A stretch of 9,790 nucleotides of DNA from Pseudomonadota bacterium. Its GTDB lineage: Bacteria; Pseudomonadota; Alphaproteobacteria; Acetobacterales; Acetobacteraceae. Position numbers and translations under genes: made by a program. The notes beneath the pieces were generated by a model, which made no database searches, was not told where the DNA came from, and saw only the letters and a list, made by a program, of their open reading frames with translations. This document shows, one piece after another, positions 1,053-9,790 of the stretch. The stretch is from NCBI GenBank assembly GCA_021845835.1, contig JAJZVE010000124.1, forward strand, positions 1 to 9,790, in the 5' to 3' direction. The stretch's first letter is position 1. The number at the start of each line of letters is the position of its first letter.

Positions 1053-1907
1053 TCAATGGCTGCGGTGGTCGAGCCCGATATCGAGCACCGGCGCGCTGTG
1101 CGTCAGCCAGCCGATGGAGATCAGGTCGACGCCCGCCGCCGCGATAGCCGGCGCGGTCGCCGGGGTGATCCGACCGGAGGCCTCCGTAATGGCTCTACCG
1201 GCGACCCTTGCGACGCCGCGGGTCAGCACTTCAGGCGTCATGTTGTCAAGCAGGATGGCATCCACGCCGATCGCCAACGCCTCATCGAGCTGATCCAGGC
1301 TGTCCACCTCGACCTCGATCTTGACAAGATGGCCGACCGCGTTGCGCGCTCGCTTCACGGCCGGGGCGATGCCCCCCGCGATTGCGACGTGGTTGTCCTT
1401 GATCAGCACGGCGTCGTCCAGGCCGAAGCGGTGATTGCTGCCACCGCCGGCGCGCACGGCGTGTTTCTCCACCGCGCGCAGGCCCGGCGTTGTCTTGCGC
1501 GTGCAGACGATCCGGGACTTGTGGCCGCGCACCGCGTTGACGACCGAAGCCGTCGCGGTCGCGATCCCGCTGAGATGGCAGAGGAAGTTCAGTGCCGTCC
1601 GCTCCGCCGTCAGCATCCCGCGCGCGGCGCCGCGCACCGTGGCGATGACGTCGCCGGGCGATACCTCACTGCCGTCTGGCCGACCCATTGCGATCTCGAT
1701 GGCAGGTTCGATCAGCTGGAACGCCAGCACCGCCAGGTCGAGGCCGGCGACGACACCCGCCTGGCGCGCCACCAGCGCGGTTTCCGCGCGCGCGGCGGCC
1801 GGGACGATGGCATCTGTGGTCAGGTCTCCGGCACGGCCCAGGTCTTCCAGCAAGGCAGCCCGGACCAGGGGCTCCAGCATCACGCGCGGGAGCGGGGAGA
1901 GCGTCAT
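1053..1907 (-). CDS. nadC: Nicotinate-nucleotide pyrophosphorylase (carboxylating), quinolinate phosphoribosyltransferase
   Basis: This enzyme converts quinolinate and PRPP to nicotinate mononucleotide, CO2 and pyrophosphate, the third step of de novo NAD synthesis. The 284-residue length is normal. Family motifs are intact: EDLGRAGDLTTDA (residues 21-33), ARQAGVVAGLD, ERTALNFLCHLSG (102-114), the phosphoribosyl-site segment CTRKTTPGLR (135-144) with EKHAVRAGGGSNHR (147-160), KDNH (170-173), the EVEVD strand (198-202), DAILLDNM (216-223), EASGRI (242-247) and the terminal ISIGWLTHSAP. I chose ATG 1907 rather than upstream in-frame starts because the homology begins there and AAAGG lies 9 bases before it, overlapping the nadB stop. 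It starts 13 bases after nadB ends, so the two are surely co-transcribed. No convincing hairpin-plus-T terminator follows it. The call is secure. Confidence 0.97.
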   Translation of the reverse strand: MTLSPLPRVMLEPLVRAALLEDLGRAGDLTTDAIVPAAARAETALVARQAGVVAGLDLAVLAFQLIEPAIEIAMGRPDGSEVSPGDVIATVRGAARGMLTAERTALNFLCHLSGIATATASVVNAVRGHKSRIVCTRKTTPGLRAVEKHAVRAGGGSNHRFGLDDAVLIKDNHVAIAGGIAPAVKRARNAVGHLVKIEVEVDSLDQLDEALAIGVDAILLDNMTPEVLTRGVARVAGRAITEASGRITPATAPAIAAAGVDLISIGWLTHSAPVLDIGLDHRSH

Positions 1908-1920
1908 GTCGTCGAGCCTT

Positions 1921-3483
1921 TCAGGATATGGAGGCGGCAGCGGGTGCGATCTCACGGGCCGCCCGCAATGCGTCGTCGAGGCACAGGGTTCGGCTCTGCG
2001 CCTGGGCGTCGTCGTGATCGGGGAAGTCCGTGCGGCAATGCGCGCCGCGGCTCTCGCGCCGGCGCAGCGCCGCAAGCACGATCATCAACCCGACCGAAGC
2101 GGGATCGGCGGCCGCGCCGCCGGAGAGCGCCAGAGGGAGCAGCGCGGCCACCGCTTCCGCCAGCGTCTCACGGCTGCGTAGCACGCCTGCGGCGCGCGAA
2201 AGGATTGGGCGCACGGGCGCAGGATCGGCGGCCGGCGGTAGCATCATCGCCGGTGGGCGCCGGACGCGCGTGGGCGCAATGCCGGCCACATCCTCGGCGA
2301 CCCAGCCCGCGCACACCGCCGCCTCCAGCAGGGAGTTGCTGGCCAGACGGTTTGCGCCGTGCATCCTGGTGCACGCCGCCTCGCCGCACGCCCACAGGCC
2401 GGCCACGGTGCTACGTCCTGCCGCGTCCACGGCGATGCCGCCCATGTGGTAGTGCGCCGCAGGTCGAACCGGGATGGGTTGTTCCGCGGGATCAAGGCCG
2501 GCGGCGCGGCAAAGGGCGGCGATCTTGGGGAAGTGCCTAGCGAACCGGCTTCCCAGCGCCTTTCGCGCGTCCAGGAAGACCCAATGCCCGTCGGCGAGAT
2601 ACCGCCAGACGGCTCGCGCGACGACATCGCGCGGCGCCAGTTCCGCCCCCGGCATGTCTTCCATGAAGCGCCGACCCGTCTCGTCAATCAGCACCGCGCC
2701 TTCGCCCCGCACGGCTTCGCTGACCAATCCCAGCGGGTAGGTGTTGCCGTCGAGCGCGGTTGGGTGGAACTGGACGAATTCCATGTCACGCAGCGCGGCG
2801 CCGGCCCGCGCGGCGAGCGCCAGGCCCTGGCCGAAGGAACCGGTCGGGTTCGTGGTGTGCAGGAACAAGCCGCCGGCGCCGCCGGTCGCGATCACCACGC
2901 GGTCGGTCGACAGCAGCCTCGTCCCGCTCTGGCCGTTGGCGAGCACGCCGGCGACGGCGTTGTCCTGCACCAGCAGCCGCCGTGCCTCGACCCCCGCAAG
3001 GACCGTGATCGATGGCGTCGCGCGCACCACTTCCGTCACCGCGCGCAGGATTTCCCACCCGGTGCCATCGCCCGCGGCGTGGACGATGCGCCGCCTTCCA
3101 TGCGCCGCCTCGCGGCCGAGGCGCAGCGCGCCATCCGCCCCGCGGTCGAAGCGTGCGCCCAGCCGTATCAGACGCTCGACCGTTTCGGCGCCCGCATGCA
3201 CGATCCGGCTCACAACCTCAGCGTCGCAAAGTCCGTCGCCGGCCGTCAGCGTGTCGGCCAGATGCAGCGCCGGGTCGTCATCCGGTCCGACCGCCGCCGC
3301 GATCCCGCCCTGCGCCCAGGCACTCGATGCCTCCATTCCGACGGGAGCCTTGGACAGGACCACCACCGGCTCGGGTGACAGGCGCAGAGCCGTCATCAGG
3401 CCGGCCAGGCCGGCGCCGATGATGACCGGTCGCCCCCCAATGTCATGCAGTGCCGTCGTTCCGCCGGCAGTCCCCATCGTCAC
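1921..3483 (-). CDS. nadB: L-aspartate oxidase
   Basis: NadB is a flavoprotein that oxidises L-aspartate to iminoaspartate, which NadA condenses with dihydroxyacetone phosphate. The 520-residue product has the FAD dinucleotide fold [15 protein letters not shown] (residues 21-35), the [12 protein letters not shown] flavin-site segment, the ATGGAGGLF strand, [10 protein letters not shown], the APRDVVARA segment, HYHMGGI and [22 protein letters not shown] (broken here only in description), and a C-terminal helical domain with [15 protein letters not shown]. All key motifs of the succinate dehydrogenase/fumarate reductase flavoprotein group are intact. The first start is GTG 3483, overlapping the nadA stop by four bases (GTGA); the ATG two codons later at 3477 is equally possible. 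This tight overlap suggests translational coupling with nadA. The gene is complete and the call is secure. Confidence 0.97.
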
Positions 3484-4465
3484 CGCACCGCGAGCATCCG
3501 CTCGACCGCAAGGCGCGCGCGCGCGGCCACCGCGGGATCGATCGTCATTTCATGGCGCATGACCTCCAGGGCCCGGCGAATGTTCGCCAGCTTGATGCGC
3601 TTCATGTGCGGGCAGAGATTGCAGGGGCGAACGAACTGAACCTCTGGGTGCTGGACGGCGACGTTGTCGCTCATCGAGCATTCCGTCAGCAGCAATGCGC
3701 GTGCCGGCCGGTGGCGGGCAACGTAGTCCGACATCGCGGCCGTTGATCCGGCGAAATCCGCCTCGGCCACCACGTCCGGCGGGCATTCGGGATGGGCGAG
3801 CACGACGACGCCTGGGTGTCCCTCGCGCACCTGCCGAACATCCGCCGCCGTGAACCGCTCGTGCACTTCACAGTGGCCGTTCCAGGCGATGATCCGAACC
3901 GCGGGTTCGGCGGCAACGTTGCGGGCCAGATACTCGTCCGGCACCATGATCACCTGCTCGGCGTCGAGCGACTCGACCACAGCGCGGGCATTGCCCGAGG
4001 TGCAACAGATGTCGGATTCCGCCTTCACGGCGGCTGAGGTGTTTACGTAGGTCACGATCGGAATGCCGGGATGGCGCTGGCGCAGCAGCCGGACGTCCTC
4101 GGCCGTGATCGAGTCGGCGAGCGAGCAGCCGGCGCCCAGGTCCGGCATGAGCACGGTCTTGCCCGGATTCAGCAGCTTCGCCGTCTCGGCCATGAAATGC
4201 ACGCCGGCCAGCACGATCACGTCGGCGTCCACTTCCATGGCCGTGCGCGCGAGCGCCAGGCTGTCGCCGACGATGTCGGCGACGCAGTGGAAGATTTCCG
4301 GCGTCTGGTAGTTGTGCGCGAGGGTCACGGCGTTGCGCCGGCGCTTCAGGACCAGGATGGCGTCGATGTCCTCGGCGAAAGCGTTCCACTCGAACGGCGG
4401 GATGACGTGCTTGACCCGGTCGTAGAGGGGCGCCGTGCGGGCGAGGGGGGTGGCAGATGCGACAT
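3480..4465 (-). CDS. nadA: Quinolinate synthase NadA, with apparent frameshift near the start
   Basis: NadA is a [4Fe-4S] enzyme that condenses iminoaspartate with dihydroxyacetone phosphate to quinolinate. The body is complete: [78 protein letters not shown] and [13 protein letters not shown]. By family comparison the cluster ligands are the Cys in GCSLAD, GHCEVH and LCPHM. The frame of the body reaches back past the expected N-terminus ([17 protein letters not shown]) but meets TAA at 4467-4469 with no ATG, GTG or TTG before GTG 4328. An ATG at 4465 is in another frame. One added C in the run at 4445-4450 joins them into [18 protein letters not shown] and a normal 328-residue protein. Starting at GTG 4328 would lose 46 conserved residues. 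I therefore give the restored extent. It may be a sequence error or a real mutation. Weak GGTGAG lies 6 bases before ATG 4465. Confidence 0.9.
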
Positions 4466-5547: not shown

Positions 5548-6006
5548 TCAAACCACCATCACTCGGCGCATAAAATCCGCAATCCGATCTGGTTTCGTGC
5601 TGAGCGGCCGACCGTCTAATGACACGAGCGAGCGTAGCCCCAGGCTGCTGCTCAGAAAGCTGGCGTCTGCGGCAAAAATGTCTCCAACGAACAGCGGTGC
5701 CTCCGTGGCACCGCATCGTTCGATCAGCATCTCGCGCATGATGCCGGGCAAGGCGCCGTGGGCAAGAGGCGGCGTGAGCAGAGCATTGCCCCGAAGCACA
5801 AAGACATTGGCGGCGCTCGCCTCCGCGAGCCGGCCATGGGTATTGAGCAGCAGCGCCTCGTCGGCATTCCGCGCCGCCGCTTCCTGCCGCGCCAGCACGC
5901 TGTCCAGAAAATTGAGCGACTTGATTCGGGACAACGGTGACATTTCGTTCCGTCGCGTCACGGTGCAGGTGATTGCGCTGGCTGGACCCGCCGGAGGGGG
6001 CAGTGG
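5548..6006 (-). pseudogene. pabC: pabC, C-terminal part (disrupted by IS)
   Basis: This is the downstream part of an aminodeoxychorismate lyase, a PLP enzyme of aminotransferase fold class IV. It runs from the insertion point to TGA 5550-5548. It contains the PLP-lysine segment SPLSRIKSLNFLD (Lys about residue 144 of the restored protein), then ADEALLLN, GRLAEASAANVFVL, TPPLAHGALPGIMREMLIE and SLDGRP near the end. It joins in frame to the N-terminal part at 7371-7726 once the IS and one target copy are removed. By chance an ATG at 6078 inside the IS left end is in frame with it, so a chimeric polypeptide with 24 or so IS-derived residues could be made. It would lack the N-terminal domain and is unlikely to be active. 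Confidence 0.93.
5996..6006. repeat. Target-site duplication, left copy
   Basis: GGGGGCAGTGG here is identical over 11 bases to 7371-7381 on the far side of the insertion sequence. Eleven bases is within the range usual for IS4-family elements. The exact match points to a simple, fairly recent transposition. Confidence 0.92.
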
Positions 6007-6022
6007 CATAGGCGCTAAAATA
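6007..6022. repeat. Left terminal inverted repeat of the IS
   Basis: CATAGGCGCTAAAATA, which differs from the inverted right end by one base (G/C at the fifth position). Terminal CA fits IS4-family ends. Confidence 0.9.
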
Positions 6023-6062
6023 GGGCTTGACCCGACGCGAATCGGTTTGATTCTGAGGGTAG

Positions 6063-7163
6063 ATGCATGACGCAGCATCTGTCCTGACCGACCAGTTCTC
6101 CGACCTGCTGGCGCGACTTCCGTCGGACCTCGACCTTGATCGTCTGGCGCTGGAGACGAAGGCGATCCAGCGCAAGCGTGAGGTTGTCGATGGTGCGAGC
6201 CTGTTGCGGATCGCGCTTGCGCGCGGTCCGGGTGGACTGTCGTTGCGCCAGACTTCGGCCTGGGCGTCGATGCTTGGGGTCGTCGAACTCGGCAACCCAG
6301 CCGTCAAATACCGGCTGGACCAGGCGACGGCGTTTCTCGCGGCCCTGGTGGAACGCCTGCTGGCGGCGAAAGCCCCTGGCGCGGAGTTGCGGTGGCCCGG
6401 TCGTATCTTGCGCCTCGCCGACGGCACCTGCGTGAGCAAACCCGGCAGCGCCGGCACCGACTGGCGCGTCCACGGCGTGTTCGATCTCGGACGCGGCGGG
6501 TTCGCGCATCTTGAACTGACCGACCAGCATGGCGCCGAAGCGCTGGAGCGTGGCGCCCCGTGCCCAGGTGAAATCCGCATCGGCGATCGCAATTACGCCC
6601 GCGCCTCGGTGCTGCGGCGCTTCCGCGCGCAGAGCGGCGGGCGTGCCGACTTCATCGTGCGGCTGGGCCGGAACGCGCTGCACCTGACCAACCCGGCGGG
6701 CAAGTCGTTTGATCTGATCGGCTATCTGCAATGTCTGCCGCCCGGTTCGAGCCCGCATGAGGTGAACCTGCGCGCACCGGTCGGCCGCGATGAGCCCGCG
6801 TTGGCGGTGCGGCTGATCGTGCAGCGCAAGACCCCCGAGGCGGCCGAAGCCACACGGTCGGCGCTGCGCCGCGCCGCCGCCAACAAGGGCAAGGCCCGCG
6901 ACCGGCGCAGCCTGATCGCGGCGGAATTCATGATCATGGCGACATCCCTGCCCAAGAGCGGATACAGTGCGAAGGCGGTCCTCGCGGTCTACCGGCTGCG
7001 CTGGCAAATCGAACTCGCGTTCAAGCGCCTGAAGTCGCTGCTGCATATCGACCGGATCCCAACATGGACCGAACGCGGATCGCGAAGTTGGCTGTATGCC
7101 CACCTCATTCTGGCCTTGCTGTGTAACGACCTCAGCCAGGATATCCTGGAATCTTCCCCCTGA
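6063..7163 (+). CDS. IS4-family transposase (DDE), frame ends early
   Basis: The 366-residue product carries the RNase H-like DDE catalytic triad: D120 in LRLADGT, D175 in RIGDRNYA, and E317 in the signature YRLRWQIELAFKRLK, where Y310, R313, E317 and K324 fit the IS4 Y-(2)-R-(3)-E-(6)-K pattern. The long stretch between D175 and E317 is the beta-strand insertion usual in this family. The start at ATG 6063 has GAGGG three bases upstream; TTGACC at 6027-6032 is a possible -35. The frame stops at CCC-TGA (7158-7163), yet typical homologous sequence continues in the +1 frame to 7362. All catalytic residues lie before the stop. The short product may therefore be a truncated enzyme, or the full 432-residue one may arise by +1 frameshifting. 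Confidence 0.93.
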   Translation: MHDAASVLTDQFSDLLARLPSDLDLDRLALETKAIQRKREVVDGASLLRIALARGPGGLSLRQTSAWASMLGVVELGNPAVKYRLDQATAFLAALVERLLAAKAPGAELRWPGRILRLADGTCVSKPGSAGTDWRVHGVFDLGRGGFAHLELTDQHGAEALERGAPCPGEIRIGDRNYARASVLRRFRAQSGGRADFIVRLGRNALHLTNPAGKSFDLIGYLQCLPPGSSPHEVNLRAPVGRDEPALAVRLIVQRKTPEAAEATRSALRRAAANKGKARDRRSLIAAEFMIMATSLPKSGYSAKAVLAVYRLRWQIELAFKRLKSLLHIDRIPTWTERGSRSWLYAHLILALLCNDLSQDILESSP

Positions 7164-7362
7164 GGAATTGCTCGACGCGGCCTACGTCCCGTCCCTCTGG
7201 GCCGTGCAGAAGACCGTGCTGATGGTGCTGCTTGCCATCATCTTCGGTCCAATCTCCCTCGCCAACATCCTGGCAGCACCAGCAATCGTTCATCGCCACC
7301 TGGCCAACGCACCGCGAAAACGAAAGCCCGCTATCCGATATCCGGTCCACGACTTATTTTAG
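7159..7362 (+). pseudogene. C-terminal continuation of the transposase in the +1 frame
   Basis: From CCT 7159 the +1 frame reads PEELLDAAYVPSLWAVQK, then a hydrophobic stretch (VLMVLLAIIFGPISLANIL) and a basic tail with APRKRKPAIRYP, ending at TAG 7360-7362 inside the right terminal repeat. It has no start of its own and completes the transposase as a natural tail of 67 residues. Skipping one base of the five-C run at 7156-7160 joins the two frames as ESSPEELLD. Either a one-base insertion or programmed frameshifting explains it. Confidence 0.8.
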
Positions 7363-7370
7363 CGCGTATG
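7355..7370. repeat. Right terminal inverted repeat of the IS
   Basis: TATTTTAGCGCGTATG, inverse of the left end with one mismatch. It contains the restored transposase stop codon (TAG 7360-7362). Confidence 0.9.
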
Positions 7371-7381
7371 GGGGGCAGTGG
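7371..7381. repeat. Target-site duplication, right copy
   Basis: GGGGGCAGTGG, identical to 5996-6006. On the coding strand of pabC it encodes the Pro-Leu-Pro-Pro part of ITSGPLPP, so the hit lies between the N- and C-terminal domains of the enzyme. Confidence 0.92.
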
Positions 7382-7726
7382 CCCCGACGTGATTAGTACG
7401 GTCGGAGTCTGCGCGGAGGGCGGCAGCACTCCGCGCGGTCCCGGGCCCCGCGAGACGGTAAGGCGGACTGCGGCGCTCTCGAGGGCGTTTGCCTGCACCG
7501 CGAGCGCGATGGCGCCGCCAAGATCGGCATCGTCCAGTGTCAGCGGCAAGGCCAGCGCGGCCAGACCAGCGCGCAGGCGCCGCAGGTGCCGATCCAGGTG
7601 CCGGGCCCGTCCGTCCGCCACACGGATTGTCTCGAACACGCCGTCTCCGAGCGTGAATCCCCGGTCGGTCGGCGCTATGCGCGCCACTTCAGCAGGCAGG
7701 ATTTCGCCGTTGAGCCAGACCTTCAT
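7371..7726 (-). pseudogene. pabC: pabC, N-terminal part (disrupted by IS)
   Basis: This is the first 119 residues of 4-amino-4-deoxychorismate lyase, which splits aminodeoxychorismate to 4-aminobenzoate and pyruvate. It starts at ATG 7726, overlapping the pabB stop as ATGA. Motifs are DRGFTLGDGVFETIR (residues 21-35), ARHLDRHLRRLRAGLAAL and VRLTVSRGPGPRG. The frame then enters the IS and stops at 7331, giving a 131-residue product without the PLP lysine, so it cannot be active. Removing the IS plus one 11-bp repeat restores a 267-residue protein with no other lesion. A class IV enzyme of another specificity is possible, but the ATGA overlap with pabB strongly favours PabC. Confidence 0.93.
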
Positions 7727-9135
7727 GACCAGAACTCTGACAAGGGCATGCCAAGGGCGTGGAGCAGAGGACAAACCTTGACCAACTGCTCCTCGTACTC
7801 GCCAGCCGGATCAGAATCCGCGACGATGCCGCCCCCGGCCTGTGCCACCAATAGCTCGGGCGTGATAACGACCGTGCGGATAACAATGCTGCTGTCCATC
7901 GTGCCGTCGAAGCCGATCCAGGCGATTGTGCCGCAATAGGGGCCGCGGCGCGCGACCCCCAGCTCATCAATGATCTCCATGGCGCGCACCTTTGGCGCCC
8001 CTGTGACCGATCCCCCGGGAAACGTCGCACCCAGCAAGTCCACCGGACCCAGGCCGGGACGCAGCCGGCCCTCAACGGCAGAGACCAGGTGATGCACGGA
8101 GGCGAAGCTCTCGATTTCGAAGAGCGACGGTACGGTGACGCTGCCGATCTCCGCTACCCGGCCGATGTCATTACGCATCAGGTCAACAATCATGAGGTTC
8201 TCGGCGCGGTCTTTTTCGCTCGCGGCGAGATCATGCCGGGCAGCTGCGTCGGCCTCAGGGTCGGGATGCCGCGGTCGGGTGCCCTTGATTGGGCGGGTCT
8301 CGACGCGGCCCGAAGTATCGAGCTGCAGGAAGCGCTCGGGCGAGGCGCTCGCGAGCGCAAGCCGGGGACCACATCCGAGAAAGGCGGCGAAGGGTGCGGG
8401 CTTCAGTGCGCGCAGCCGCATGTAGAGGTCTGCGGCACGCCGGGCGGGCGGCCGGGGCGTCAGATAGCGCATGGTGAAGTTGGCCTGGAAAATGTCGCCG
8501 GTGCGGATGTAGTCGAGCACGTGCGCGACCCGGCTTTCATATTCGGGTCGGGTCAGCTCCGGCCGCCACACCGTCTTGACTGGCTTGCCGCCGCCGATCA
8601 ACGAAACGGCGGTCACGGTTTTCAGACGGCGCAGCACGGCATCCGCCCGTGCCGTTGCCCGGCGGCGACGTGCCGTGGGGTCGGTCTCGGGAAAACCGGA
8701 CGAGATCAGCCAGCAGCGCCGCGCAATTCCGTCGAACGCAAGTACGACGTCATAAAAGGCCACTGCGATATCCGGGATGCCCAGATCGTCCGCGTGACGC
8801 TGAGGCAAGTGCTCCAAGTGCCGGCCCAGCTCGTAACCCAGGAAACCCACCGCACCTCCCGCGAAAGGGACCGGCGCCTGCCCGGGTTCCAACCGCCAGC
8901 GCGCCAGTTCGCGCTGCAGCGCGCGGAAAGGATCTCCTTCGACGGCGGCTTCGTTCACTGTGACGCGGTTCCCCTTTGCCTGCAGCACCTGAAACGGCCT
9001 GACGCACAAATAGCTGTAACGGCTGCGTGAGTCAGTTGCCGCTGCGCTGTCCAGCCAAGCCACGTAGGGGTCGTCCGACCAGACCGCGAACACCTCCGCC
9101 GGGTCGCCCCAGGCGATCTCTTGGATATGGATCAT
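7723..9135 (-). CDS. pabB: Aminodeoxychorismate synthase component I
   Basis: PabB aminates chorismate to 4-amino-4-deoxychorismate using ammonia from a PabA glutaminase, which is not in this window. The 470-residue protein has an N-terminal half with GGAVGFLGYELG (residues 93-104) and a chorismate-binding half with TGDIFQANFTMRY (212-224), SASPERFL, TRPIKGTRPR (280-289), ENLMIVDLMRNDIGRV (312-327), FPGGSVTGAPK (372-382) and GGGIVADSDP (434-443). The Lys in PIKGT (K284) is the residue that separates PabB from anthranilate synthase TrpE, which has Ala there, so the specificity is well supported. No C-terminal lyase fusion is present; the lyase is the separate overlapping pabC. The start at ATG 9135 has no strong ribosome site. 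It is divergent from the ATP-grasp gene across about 143 bases. All catalytic motifs are intact. Confidence 0.96.
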   Translation of the reverse strand: MIHIQEIAWGDPAEVFAVWSDDPYVAWLDSAAATDSRSRYSYLCVRPFQVLQAKGNRVTVNEAAVEGDPFRALQRELARWRLEPGQAPVPFAGGAVGFLGYELGRHLEHLPQRHADDLGIPDIAVAFYDVVLAFDGIARRCWLISSGFPETDPTARRRRATARADAVLRRLKTVTAVSLIGGGKPVKTVWRPELTRPEYESRVAHVLDYIRTGDIFQANFTMRYLTPRPPARRAADLYMRLRALKPAPFAAFLGCGPRLALASASPERFLQLDTSGRVETRPIKGTRPRHPDPEADAAARHDLAASEKDRAENLMIVDLMRNDIGRVAEIGSVTVPSLFEIESFASVHHLVSAVEGRLRPGLGPVDLLGATFPGGSVTGAPKVRAMEIIDELGVARRGPYCGTIAWIGFDGTMDSSIVIRTVVITPELLVAQAGGGIVADSDPAGEYEEQLVKVCPLLHALGMPLSEFWS

Positions 9136-9268
9136 TGCGCCGTCTTGAACGCGTGTCGCCGGGTCAGGAGGGCGAGCACGTCAGGGACTGGGATACTTGC
9201 GCCCGGCGATGCTCGCGCGCGGATCACGGCGGGTTGTAGAATTCATGCCGTGGCAAGACAACCATGCC

Positions 9269-9273
9269 AGGAG
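9269..9273 (+). promoter_or_regulatory. Ribosome-binding site favouring GTG 9279
   Basis: AGGAG lies 5 bases before GTG 9279. The alternative ATG 9264 has only a poor AAGAC upstream, and it would place this AGGAG within the coding region. Confidence 0.55.
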
Positions 9274-9278
9274 TTGGG

Positions 9279-9790
9279 GTGCGCATTTTCATCTGTGAAT
9301 ACGTGACCGGCGGCGGCTTCGCCGACGCGCCAGTGCCATGGGACCTGCAACGTGAGGGCGAAATCATGCTTCGCGCCCTGGTGCGCGACCTTGCCGCGAT
9401 CGGTGGTGTGACGCTTCTGGTTGCCCGCGACGCACGGCTGCTCTCGCCCGGGCTGCCAGGCACGCCGGTGCGGGTCGCAAAGGGCGACGATTGCTGGCAG
9501 GTATGGGCGGAAGCGATCAGCGCAGCAGACGCCGTCTGGCCGGTGGCACCTGAGACGGGCGGCCTGCTGCAGCGGCTCAGCCAACTCGCAATCGACTCCG
9601 GCAAGACCCTGCTGGGTTGCCGGCCGGAAGCGGTCCGCCTATGCGGCAACAAGCTGGAAACGGCGGCCCATCTGGCAGGGCACGGGATCGCTGTGGTACC
9701 CACGCAGCCACTGACAGCGAACGTGGTCAGAAATCTACCGGACGCGGTCGGCGGCTGGGTGGTCAAGCCGAATGACGGAGCCGGAGCCGC
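9279..9790 (+). CDS. ATP-grasp protein, COG1821/MfnD-like (3' end outside window)
   Basis: The frame is open to the right edge. It begins MRIFICEYVTGGGF if GTG 9279 is used, and contains LGCRPEAVRLCGNKLETAAHL and, near the edge, WVVKPNDGAGA, the ATP-grasp nucleotide-binding strand-loop. The opening (E-Y/F-x-T-G-G-G) and the CxNKLET segment recall the COG1821 group, which includes archaeal tyramine-glutamate ligase MfnD of methanofuran synthesis and proteins encoded in methylotroph formaldehyde-oxidation clusters. I prefer GTG 9279 because AGGAG (9269-9273) sits 5 bases before it; ATG 9264 is in frame and would add five residues. An in-frame TAG at 9237 rules out longer forms. Only about 171 residues are visible, so the substrate is unproven. 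Confidence 0.72.
   Translation, partial: MRIFICEYVTGGGFADAPVPWDLQREGEIMLRALVRDLAAIGGVTLLVARDARLLSPGLPGTPVRVAKGDDCWQVWAEAISAADAVWPVAPETGGLLQRLSQLAIDSGKTLLGCRPEAVRLCGNKLETAAHLAGHGIAVVPTQPLTANVVRNLPDAVGGWVVKPNDGAGA

Follow-up and report, generated by a model that had tools for sequence, protein, structure and literature searches.

In silico analysis of a 9,790-nt contig from an Acetobacteraceae bacterium (JAJZVE010000124.1; the whole stretch is referred to as the window) has revealed an IS4-family insertion sequence (IS) of the IS186/IS421 type lying within a class IV aminotransferase gene next to pabB. We consider it very likely that the element transposed into this gene at a GGGG-N7-CCCC site, duplicating 11 bp, and that its full-length transposase would comprise ~432 amino acids (aa), with a 366-aa open reading frame (ORF A) joined to a 66-residue tail in the +1 frame by a shift at TCC_CCC_U(GA). 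A clean IS insertion is a routine event; the target preference and the +1 transposase tail go beyond what an earlier reading of this DNA from its letters alone (the sequence-only reading) had described, and the apparently recoded tail, conserved as far as IS186 of E. coli, is the part worth following.

ORF A terminates in TCT TCC CCC TGA at 7152-7163, while the +1 frame stays open for 66 codons beyond, ending in a stop at 7360-7362, eight bases short of the end of the element. Searching for the tail as a separate ORF yielded 180 candidates, 179 of them at E <= 0.001; among the 120 listed, these are small ORFs of 64-117 aa, a length limited by the search. In 78 of these 120 the motif LPP[ED] is read across the site in the +1 frame, and the C-terminal SSP that precedes the frame 0 stop is present in 110 of the 120 listed transposase homologues; together, LPP[ED] in +1 and SSP-stop in frame 0 fix the site as TCT TCC CCC TGA. 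Another 32 of the listed tail ORFs begin past the site, and the remaining ten comprise five with LSPED, two with FPPED, one with LPLEE and two (P0279 and P0329) that run unbroken from the transposase end. The tail alone matched no Pfam family above cut-off and is predicted to be mostly helical (helices at 378-394, 399-404 and 407-414 of the modelled protein), with block values of the predicted local distance difference test (pLDDT) of 84-89 for residues 381-410. In two relatives, tails have been annotated as separate hypothetical proteins (L050:2569-2763, 64 aa, Methylocystis; L084:1494-1634, 46 aa, Klebsiella). We also noticed a perfect palindrome, CCAGGATATCCTGG, at 7136-7149, just 5' of the proposed shift site; folding of this stretch was no better than that of shuffled sequences.

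To assess coding constraint, one sequence of a pair was kept, the observed substitutions were reassigned randomly to sites with the same base and the resulting translation was scored (BLOSUM) over 20,000 permutations. For the tails of the window and Methylocystis (L050) elements, the +1 frame scored 149 against a permuted mean of 79.6, a score reached by 0 of 20,000 permutations, whereas frame 0 and the third frame gave no signal (17,218 and 12,325 of 20,000 reached the score). Likewise, the Roseibium (L053) and IS421 (L054) tails scored 134 in +1 against a mean of 33.4 (0/20,000), again with no signal in the other frames (18,550 and 17,829 of 20,000). Differences at codon positions 1, 2 and 3 numbered 24, 19 and 36 for window/Methylocystis, 29, 20 and 40 for Roseibium/IS421, and 1014, 839 and 1121 when summed over the 28 pairs of eight tails; a few distant pairs lacked the third-position excess, e.g. 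window/Rhizobium (45, 40 and 35). At the level of comparative sequence data, these results show the tail to be protein-coding and part of the transposase.

The frame relation between ORF A and the tail was tallied over 67 loci (L015-L081), of which 48 had a tail match and several overlap or copy one element; the copies of genome G518 (L057, L065, L068, L070 and L072) were left out. L056 and L057 had no BLAST match to the tail and were read by eye, a reading that gave nothing usable for L085 and L086. Elements with the tail in +1 are those of the window, Methylocystis, Roseibium, E. coli (IS421/IS186), L015, G833 (two copies) and L074, with weak matches adding L075 and L076. At these +1 sites we observed YCC CCC before TGA, TGC or TGT, with IS421 displaying TTC CCC CCC AGA and L074 not being resolved to this motif. 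All 26 IS421 copies on viral contigs are in +1, but they are near-identical to each other. In the E. coli plasmid copies and that of K-12 MG1655, the tail follows in +1 after a run of seven Cs; among 60 E. coli records sampled evenly down the ranking, 57 were identical over 101 bases around this C7, two lacked one base and one was partial. Across 2,713 E. coli records, 2,681 have a best match of 99% identity or more, which leaves room for one changed base. An E. coli plasmid copy with six Cs (L082), one of the two that lacked a base, was considered as a natural fused allele and rejected, since it is truncated and decayed and has lost single bases at two places. A tail in frame 0 was found in Rhizobium (L052), Komagataeibacter (L051), G735 and L059, with a stop inside the L059 tail.

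Taken together, these data strongly suggest that the tail is reached by recoding, i.e. by a +1 shift at the proline C-run; as in a programmed +1 frameshift, the shift site is conserved and the frame entered is under coding constraint, with the direction differing in three relatives. If the transposase instead ended at 366 aa and the +1 tail were a leftover or chance open frame, the window would hold an insertion only. This would fit the description of IS4 transposases as single-ORF proteins with no frameshift (PMC2266710) and the location of the proposed catalytic triad entirely within the 366 aa, but we regard it as very improbable given the 179 tail homologues, the relatives with the tail fused in frame and a coding signal solely in the +1 frame, which already contradicts a chance frame. 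Nor do the relatives with a fused tail sit well with translational coupling, whereby the tail would be a separate small protein made via re-initiation at the overlapping stop. Although gene callers predict separate coding sequences of 64 aa in Methylocystis and 46 aa in Klebsiella, the start codons of the tail are not conserved over the seven elements inspected, and L015 harbors no ATG, GTG or TTG in +1 between the upstream stop and +53, a point past conserved tail residues; this route is thus improbable as well.

As for how the frame would be changed, we surmise that the ribosomal route is the likeliest, on the analogy of published CCC_UGA behavior: during slow reading of the codon that follows (UGA in the window element; UGC, UGU or AGA in relatives), the peptidyl-tRNA-Pro would move its pairing from CCC to CCU. 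Shifting by +1 at CCC_UGA has been described in E. coli pheL (15%) and in Listeria phages (PMC5009743). On balance, we lean towards +1 ribosomal frameshifting as the way in which IS186/IS421 and many relatives make their full-length transposase (~424 aa in IS421, 432 aa here), a proposal that we hold with only modest confidence. Transcriptional slippage, in which RNA polymerase would gain or lose a base at the C-run and ribosomes would read the altered mRNA normally, seems rather unlikely to us: the C7 of IS421, the C9 with opposite direction in L016 and the +1 transcriptional realignment known in other IS (PMC5009743, PMC6211511) all speak for it, but the runs are merely C5-C6 in the window, Methylocystis and Roseibium, and the slippage motifs quoted in PMC3711429 are A runs >7 and T runs >8. 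Termination at UGA would yield a 366-aa form with the catalytic residues and without the tail, and one may speculate that the shift rate sets the amount of full-length transposase.

Several observations weigh against the proposed +1 recoding. The tail lies in the -1 frame in three relatives (L016, L018 and L056), and a variable shift direction has been taken as a mark of transcriptional realignment (PMC3711429); the G518 copies form a mixture without a readable frame relation; and 19 of the 67 loci, mostly short or distant, had no tail match (18 with a transposase match and one with neither). The shift sites of the 78-92% identical relatives were deduced from protein ORFs, and the Methylocystis copy used in the coding test is broken inside ORF A, with no ends found for it. 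Model confidence is low for residues 361-380 (pLDDT 62-64) and 418-432 (<50), and no unusual mRNA structure was detected downstream of the site in four elements (z of -0.28, -1.67, -0.06 and -0.48). The E. coli pheL site itself shifts at just 1.9% in Salmonella (PMC5009743).

Two side observations concern the variable copies. In L016 (2575-2786) a C9 run accompanies the -1 tail, and run length and shift direction may co-evolve. Within G518, L057, L065 and L068 differ by single bases in C/T runs near the tail, which may reflect decay, sequencing error or another arrangement.

ORF A carries a DDE transposase domain with the Y(2)R(3)E(6)K motif (YRLRWQIELAFKRLK, starting at residue 310 and containing E317), although its score with NF033592 (107.2 bits) is slightly below the cut-off of 115; these features, together with the 11-bp duplication, bear out the IS4-family assignment made in the sequence-only reading. 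From D120 to D175 there are 54 residues, vs. D(60-110)D for the IS4 family, both aspartates having been assigned in this analysis. Among the 120 transposase homologues listed, of 2,854 found, 106 are exactly 366 aa. A DNA search of plasmids for relatives of the element returned one record (67% over 26% of the query), while a protein search of plasmids gave 1,014 records, all <60%, the best being Methylocystis (54% over 97%). Viral contigs contributed 26 element loci, the full-length ones 36-37% identical, and in genome draws of 385, 397, 82 and 398 (some recurring) the best full-length relative, G735, was 46% identical. A sequence profile search of solved structures gave no match up to an E of 1.

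Features of the window considered in this analysis (positions from the first base of the window)
Feature	Position	Strand	Basis
IS186/IS421-like IS4-family insertion sequence, 1364 bp	6007..7370	+	Ends, inverted repeats, direct repeats, transposase families and homologues
Target-site duplication copy 1, GGGGGCAGTGG	5996..6006	none	Repeat search and scripted coordinate check
Target-site duplication copy 2, GGGGGCAGTGG, followed by CCCC	7371..7381	none	Scripted coordinate check
Left terminal inverted repeat, CATAGGCGCTAAAATAGG	6007..6024	+	16/18 positions match right end
Right terminal inverted repeat, CATACGCGCTAAAATAAG	7353..7370	-	16/18 positions match left end
Transposase ORF A, 366 aa	6063..7163	+	PF01609; proposed catalytic D120-D175-E317, Y(2)R(3)E(6)K motif
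Proposed +1 shift site, TCC CCC T(GA)	7155..7161	+	Common to +1 relatives; implied in 78/120 listed tail ORFs
Transposase C-terminal tail, 66 aa + stop, +1 frame	7162..7362	+	Homologues, coding test, fused relatives, model
Probable pabC, 3' part, 152 codons + stop	5548..6006	-	Aminotran_4 profile positions 86-216
Probable pabC, 5' part, 118 codons	7371..7726	-	Aminotran_4 profile positions 1-85
pabB	7723..9135	-	TIGR00553 336.8 bits (cut-off 328.4); overlaps pabC start by 4 nt
nadA	3480-4328	-	
nadB	1921-3483	-	
nadC	1053-2075	-	

With regard to the insertion itself, the two copies of GGGGGCAGTGG flanking the element are identical at 11 of 11 bases (the 12-bp figure of the repeat listing includes one shared C), and scripted checks reproduced to the base what the sequence-only reading had proposed, namely a 1364-bp element that splits the gene with a perfect 11-bp duplication. 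Removal of the element and one repeat gives 804 nt, a single open frame of 267 codons plus stop in which ITSGPLPP runs in frame into PAGPASAI, as had been read. Chance is no explanation for 11-bp repeats that abut a full-length element precisely on either side. Metagenome assemblers are often misled by repeats, and the window is apparently the entire 9790-base contig; a split arising as an assembly artefact is nevertheless scarcely credible, as the 11-bp repeats are perfect and the 804-nt frame is restored exactly, which makes a chimera unlikely. As read from the assembled sequence, the data thus show an insertion into the split gene behind an intact pabB.

The gene had further been described as otherwise intact, which agrees with the open rejoined frame, the lack of visible decay and the rejoined protein showing no departure from consensus in any of the 47 columns with 97% or higher invariance among the other sequences. 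The insertion is probably recent, as was also suggested; the absence of deviations fits this, but the column test (based on the first 60 of 117 homologues sized 255-285 aa) is weak, since 37 of the 60 intact homologues likewise deviate at 0 columns. Absence of stops alone carries little information, because just 44 of the 2,403 possible single substitutions in the rejoined gene would create one. The list of 120 homologues found for the joined protein comprises 117 of 255-285 aa, two longer ones and a single short one, which is the 153-residue piece from the window itself. The split gene has presumably lost its function, and its disruption alone would be of little importance beyond the host itself.

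The empty site reads GGGGGCAGTGG-CCCC, i.e. GGGG-N7-CCCC, in line with the preferred IS186 target quoted as GGGG(N6/N7)CCCC (PMC6925257); the 8,415-nt empty window offers two GGGG-N6/7-CCCC places, and the element occupies one of them (one copy examined). In the loci examined, the E. coli copies likewise lie inside GGG...CCC blocks with duplications of ~10 bp, and the K-12 copy has ends (CATAAGCGCTAACTTAAGGG) clearly related to those of the window element (CATAGGCGCTAAAATAGG). At 11 bp, about one helix turn, the duplication agrees with the IS4 family, for which a published table gives target duplications of 10-12 bp for IS231 and 10 bp for ISH8 (PMC2266710).

Each half of the split gene scores above the cut-off of PF01063 (Aminotran_4), with complementary profile positions, and the 3' part contains an SRIKSLN stretch that we take to be the site of the pyridoxal phosphate lysine. 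In the sequence-only reading this gene had been named pabC. That naming is supported by the overlap with pabB, but no curated aminodeoxychorismate lyase model reaches its cut-off with the joined protein (the three best being TIGR03461, 126.1 vs. 176.85; NF004761, 130.2 vs. 260; NF005800, 137.7 vs. 308); its best curated score is with a branched-chain aminotransferase subfamily, likewise below cut-off, and those homologues that carry a source name have general ones (aminotransferase class IV, branched-chain aminotransferase). Based on gene order beside pabB, the split gene is probably the folate gene pabC; the pair of pabB and a class IV aminotransferase recurs in Aquabacter spiritensis (L001), where the 4-nt overlap is repeated, and in a Rhodospirillales metagenome-assembled genome (L002). 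With a pabB-linked aminotransferase and many homologues falling under the lyase cut-offs, the usual models may miss this PabC branch. Three class IV aminotransferases are encoded in each of the two genomes whose pabB-pabC loci are the nearest named ones; apart from the pabB-linked enzyme, these score over cut-off as a branched-chain transaminase and as a D-amino-acid transaminase subfamily. A backup enzyme for the split gene in the host is conceivable, one of three ways out named in the sequence-only reading, the others being import of 4-aminobenzoate and an insertion present in only some of the cells.

Downstream of the split gene, and in the same direction, lie nrtR, nadA, nadB and nadC, the first being an NrtR-type regulator (winged-helix PF21906; 4522-5472, minus strand) located between the split gene and nadA-nadB-nadC. 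Since the regulator and the nad genes share a strand with the split gene, the insertion could be polar on the genes of NAD synthesis. Divergent from pabB is a partial protein (9264-9788, plus strand) with a pre-ATP-grasp domain (PF18301) and a weak match, far under cut-off, to the tyramine-glutamate ligase MfnD, a possible link to a 4-aminobenzoate-derived cofactor. The idea that the pabB-pabC pair serves methanopterin synthesis was unsupported among ten Aquabacter ORFs scanned.

In the survey entitled 'IS4 family goes genomic' (PMC2266710), a single ORF and the absence of frameshift are given as hallmarks of the family, and IS186 and IS421 are absent from its main text. Judging from the conserved, coding +1 tail, the hallmark of no frameshift does not seem to hold for the IS186/IS421 branch. 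A 2016 review of recoding stated that no IS with +1 ribosomal frameshifting had been identified until then, and in the parts examined mentions neither IS186 nor IS4 (PMC5009743). A survey of frame transitions retained clusters with seven A-rich heptamers, a filter by which a C-run would have been missed; three DDE_Tnp_1 clusters with +1 shifts do appear in it (PMC3711429). We found no account of frameshifting in IS186/IS421 in the open-licence literature; an earlier notice in Sharma et al. 2011 is possible. If our interpretation is true, the annotation of IS186, which is counted among the most active IS of E. coli (PMC6925257), lacks some 50-60 residues of the protein, the 370-aa protein as annotated would be a shortened version, which may restrain or adjust transposition, and a conserved tail is currently filed as unrelated hypothetical proteins or left unannotated. 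It would also define an IS group that naturally uses +1 ribosomal frameshifting at a run of Cs, overturning the 'no frameshift' hallmark of the IS4 family and providing a case of the sort passed over by surveys built on A-rich motifs. A shift at CCC proline codons would, in addition, link transposition to the supply and modification of tRNA-Pro and to release-factor activity.

Among known systems, homologous transposases and ends place the window element in the IS186/IS421-type group of the IS4 family. The likeness to the E. coli elements comprises: 1) a transposase ~37-38% identical over residues 10-366; 2) CATA-GCGCTAA ends; 3) a GC-block target; and 4) a +1 tail after a C-run. IS421/IS186 differ in having C7 followed by AGA, with frame 0 running ~10 codons longer (annotated as 370 aa), as opposed to C5 and an immediate UGA in the window, and the E. 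coli copy L083 has a duplication of 10 bp (8 and 12 also fit) vs. 11 here. The K-12 copy is annotated as IS421 family, and K-12 copies of this element go by the name IS186. The IS4-family elements of Rhizobium, Komagataeibacter and G735 have a homologous tail that follows the transposase at the same point, but in frame 0, as one long ORF. More distantly, the Tn5 transposase structures (1muh, 1mm8, 1mus, 3ecp and 4dm0) share 13-16% identity with the window transposase at a root-mean-square deviation of 7-8 Å, with Foldseek TM-scores of just 0.35-0.40, a comparison in which the tail itself is barely tested. The CCC_UGA sites of E. coli pheL and the Listeria phage tsh genes shift by +1 alike, but these are not transposases. 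A +1 frameshift cited as functional in ISLpl4 means that +1 in any IS is not new, but ISLpl4 belongs to another family (IS982) and is compared here by citation, not at the level of the shift site (PMC7335449). Frameshifting in IS1, IS3, IS5 and IS630 also creates the transposase by a change of frame; in most cases it links an ORF for DNA binding with one for catalysis, often by -1 (PMC5009743), whereas the proposed shift in the window element is +1 and would add a C-terminal tail to an ORF in which the catalytic residues are already present.

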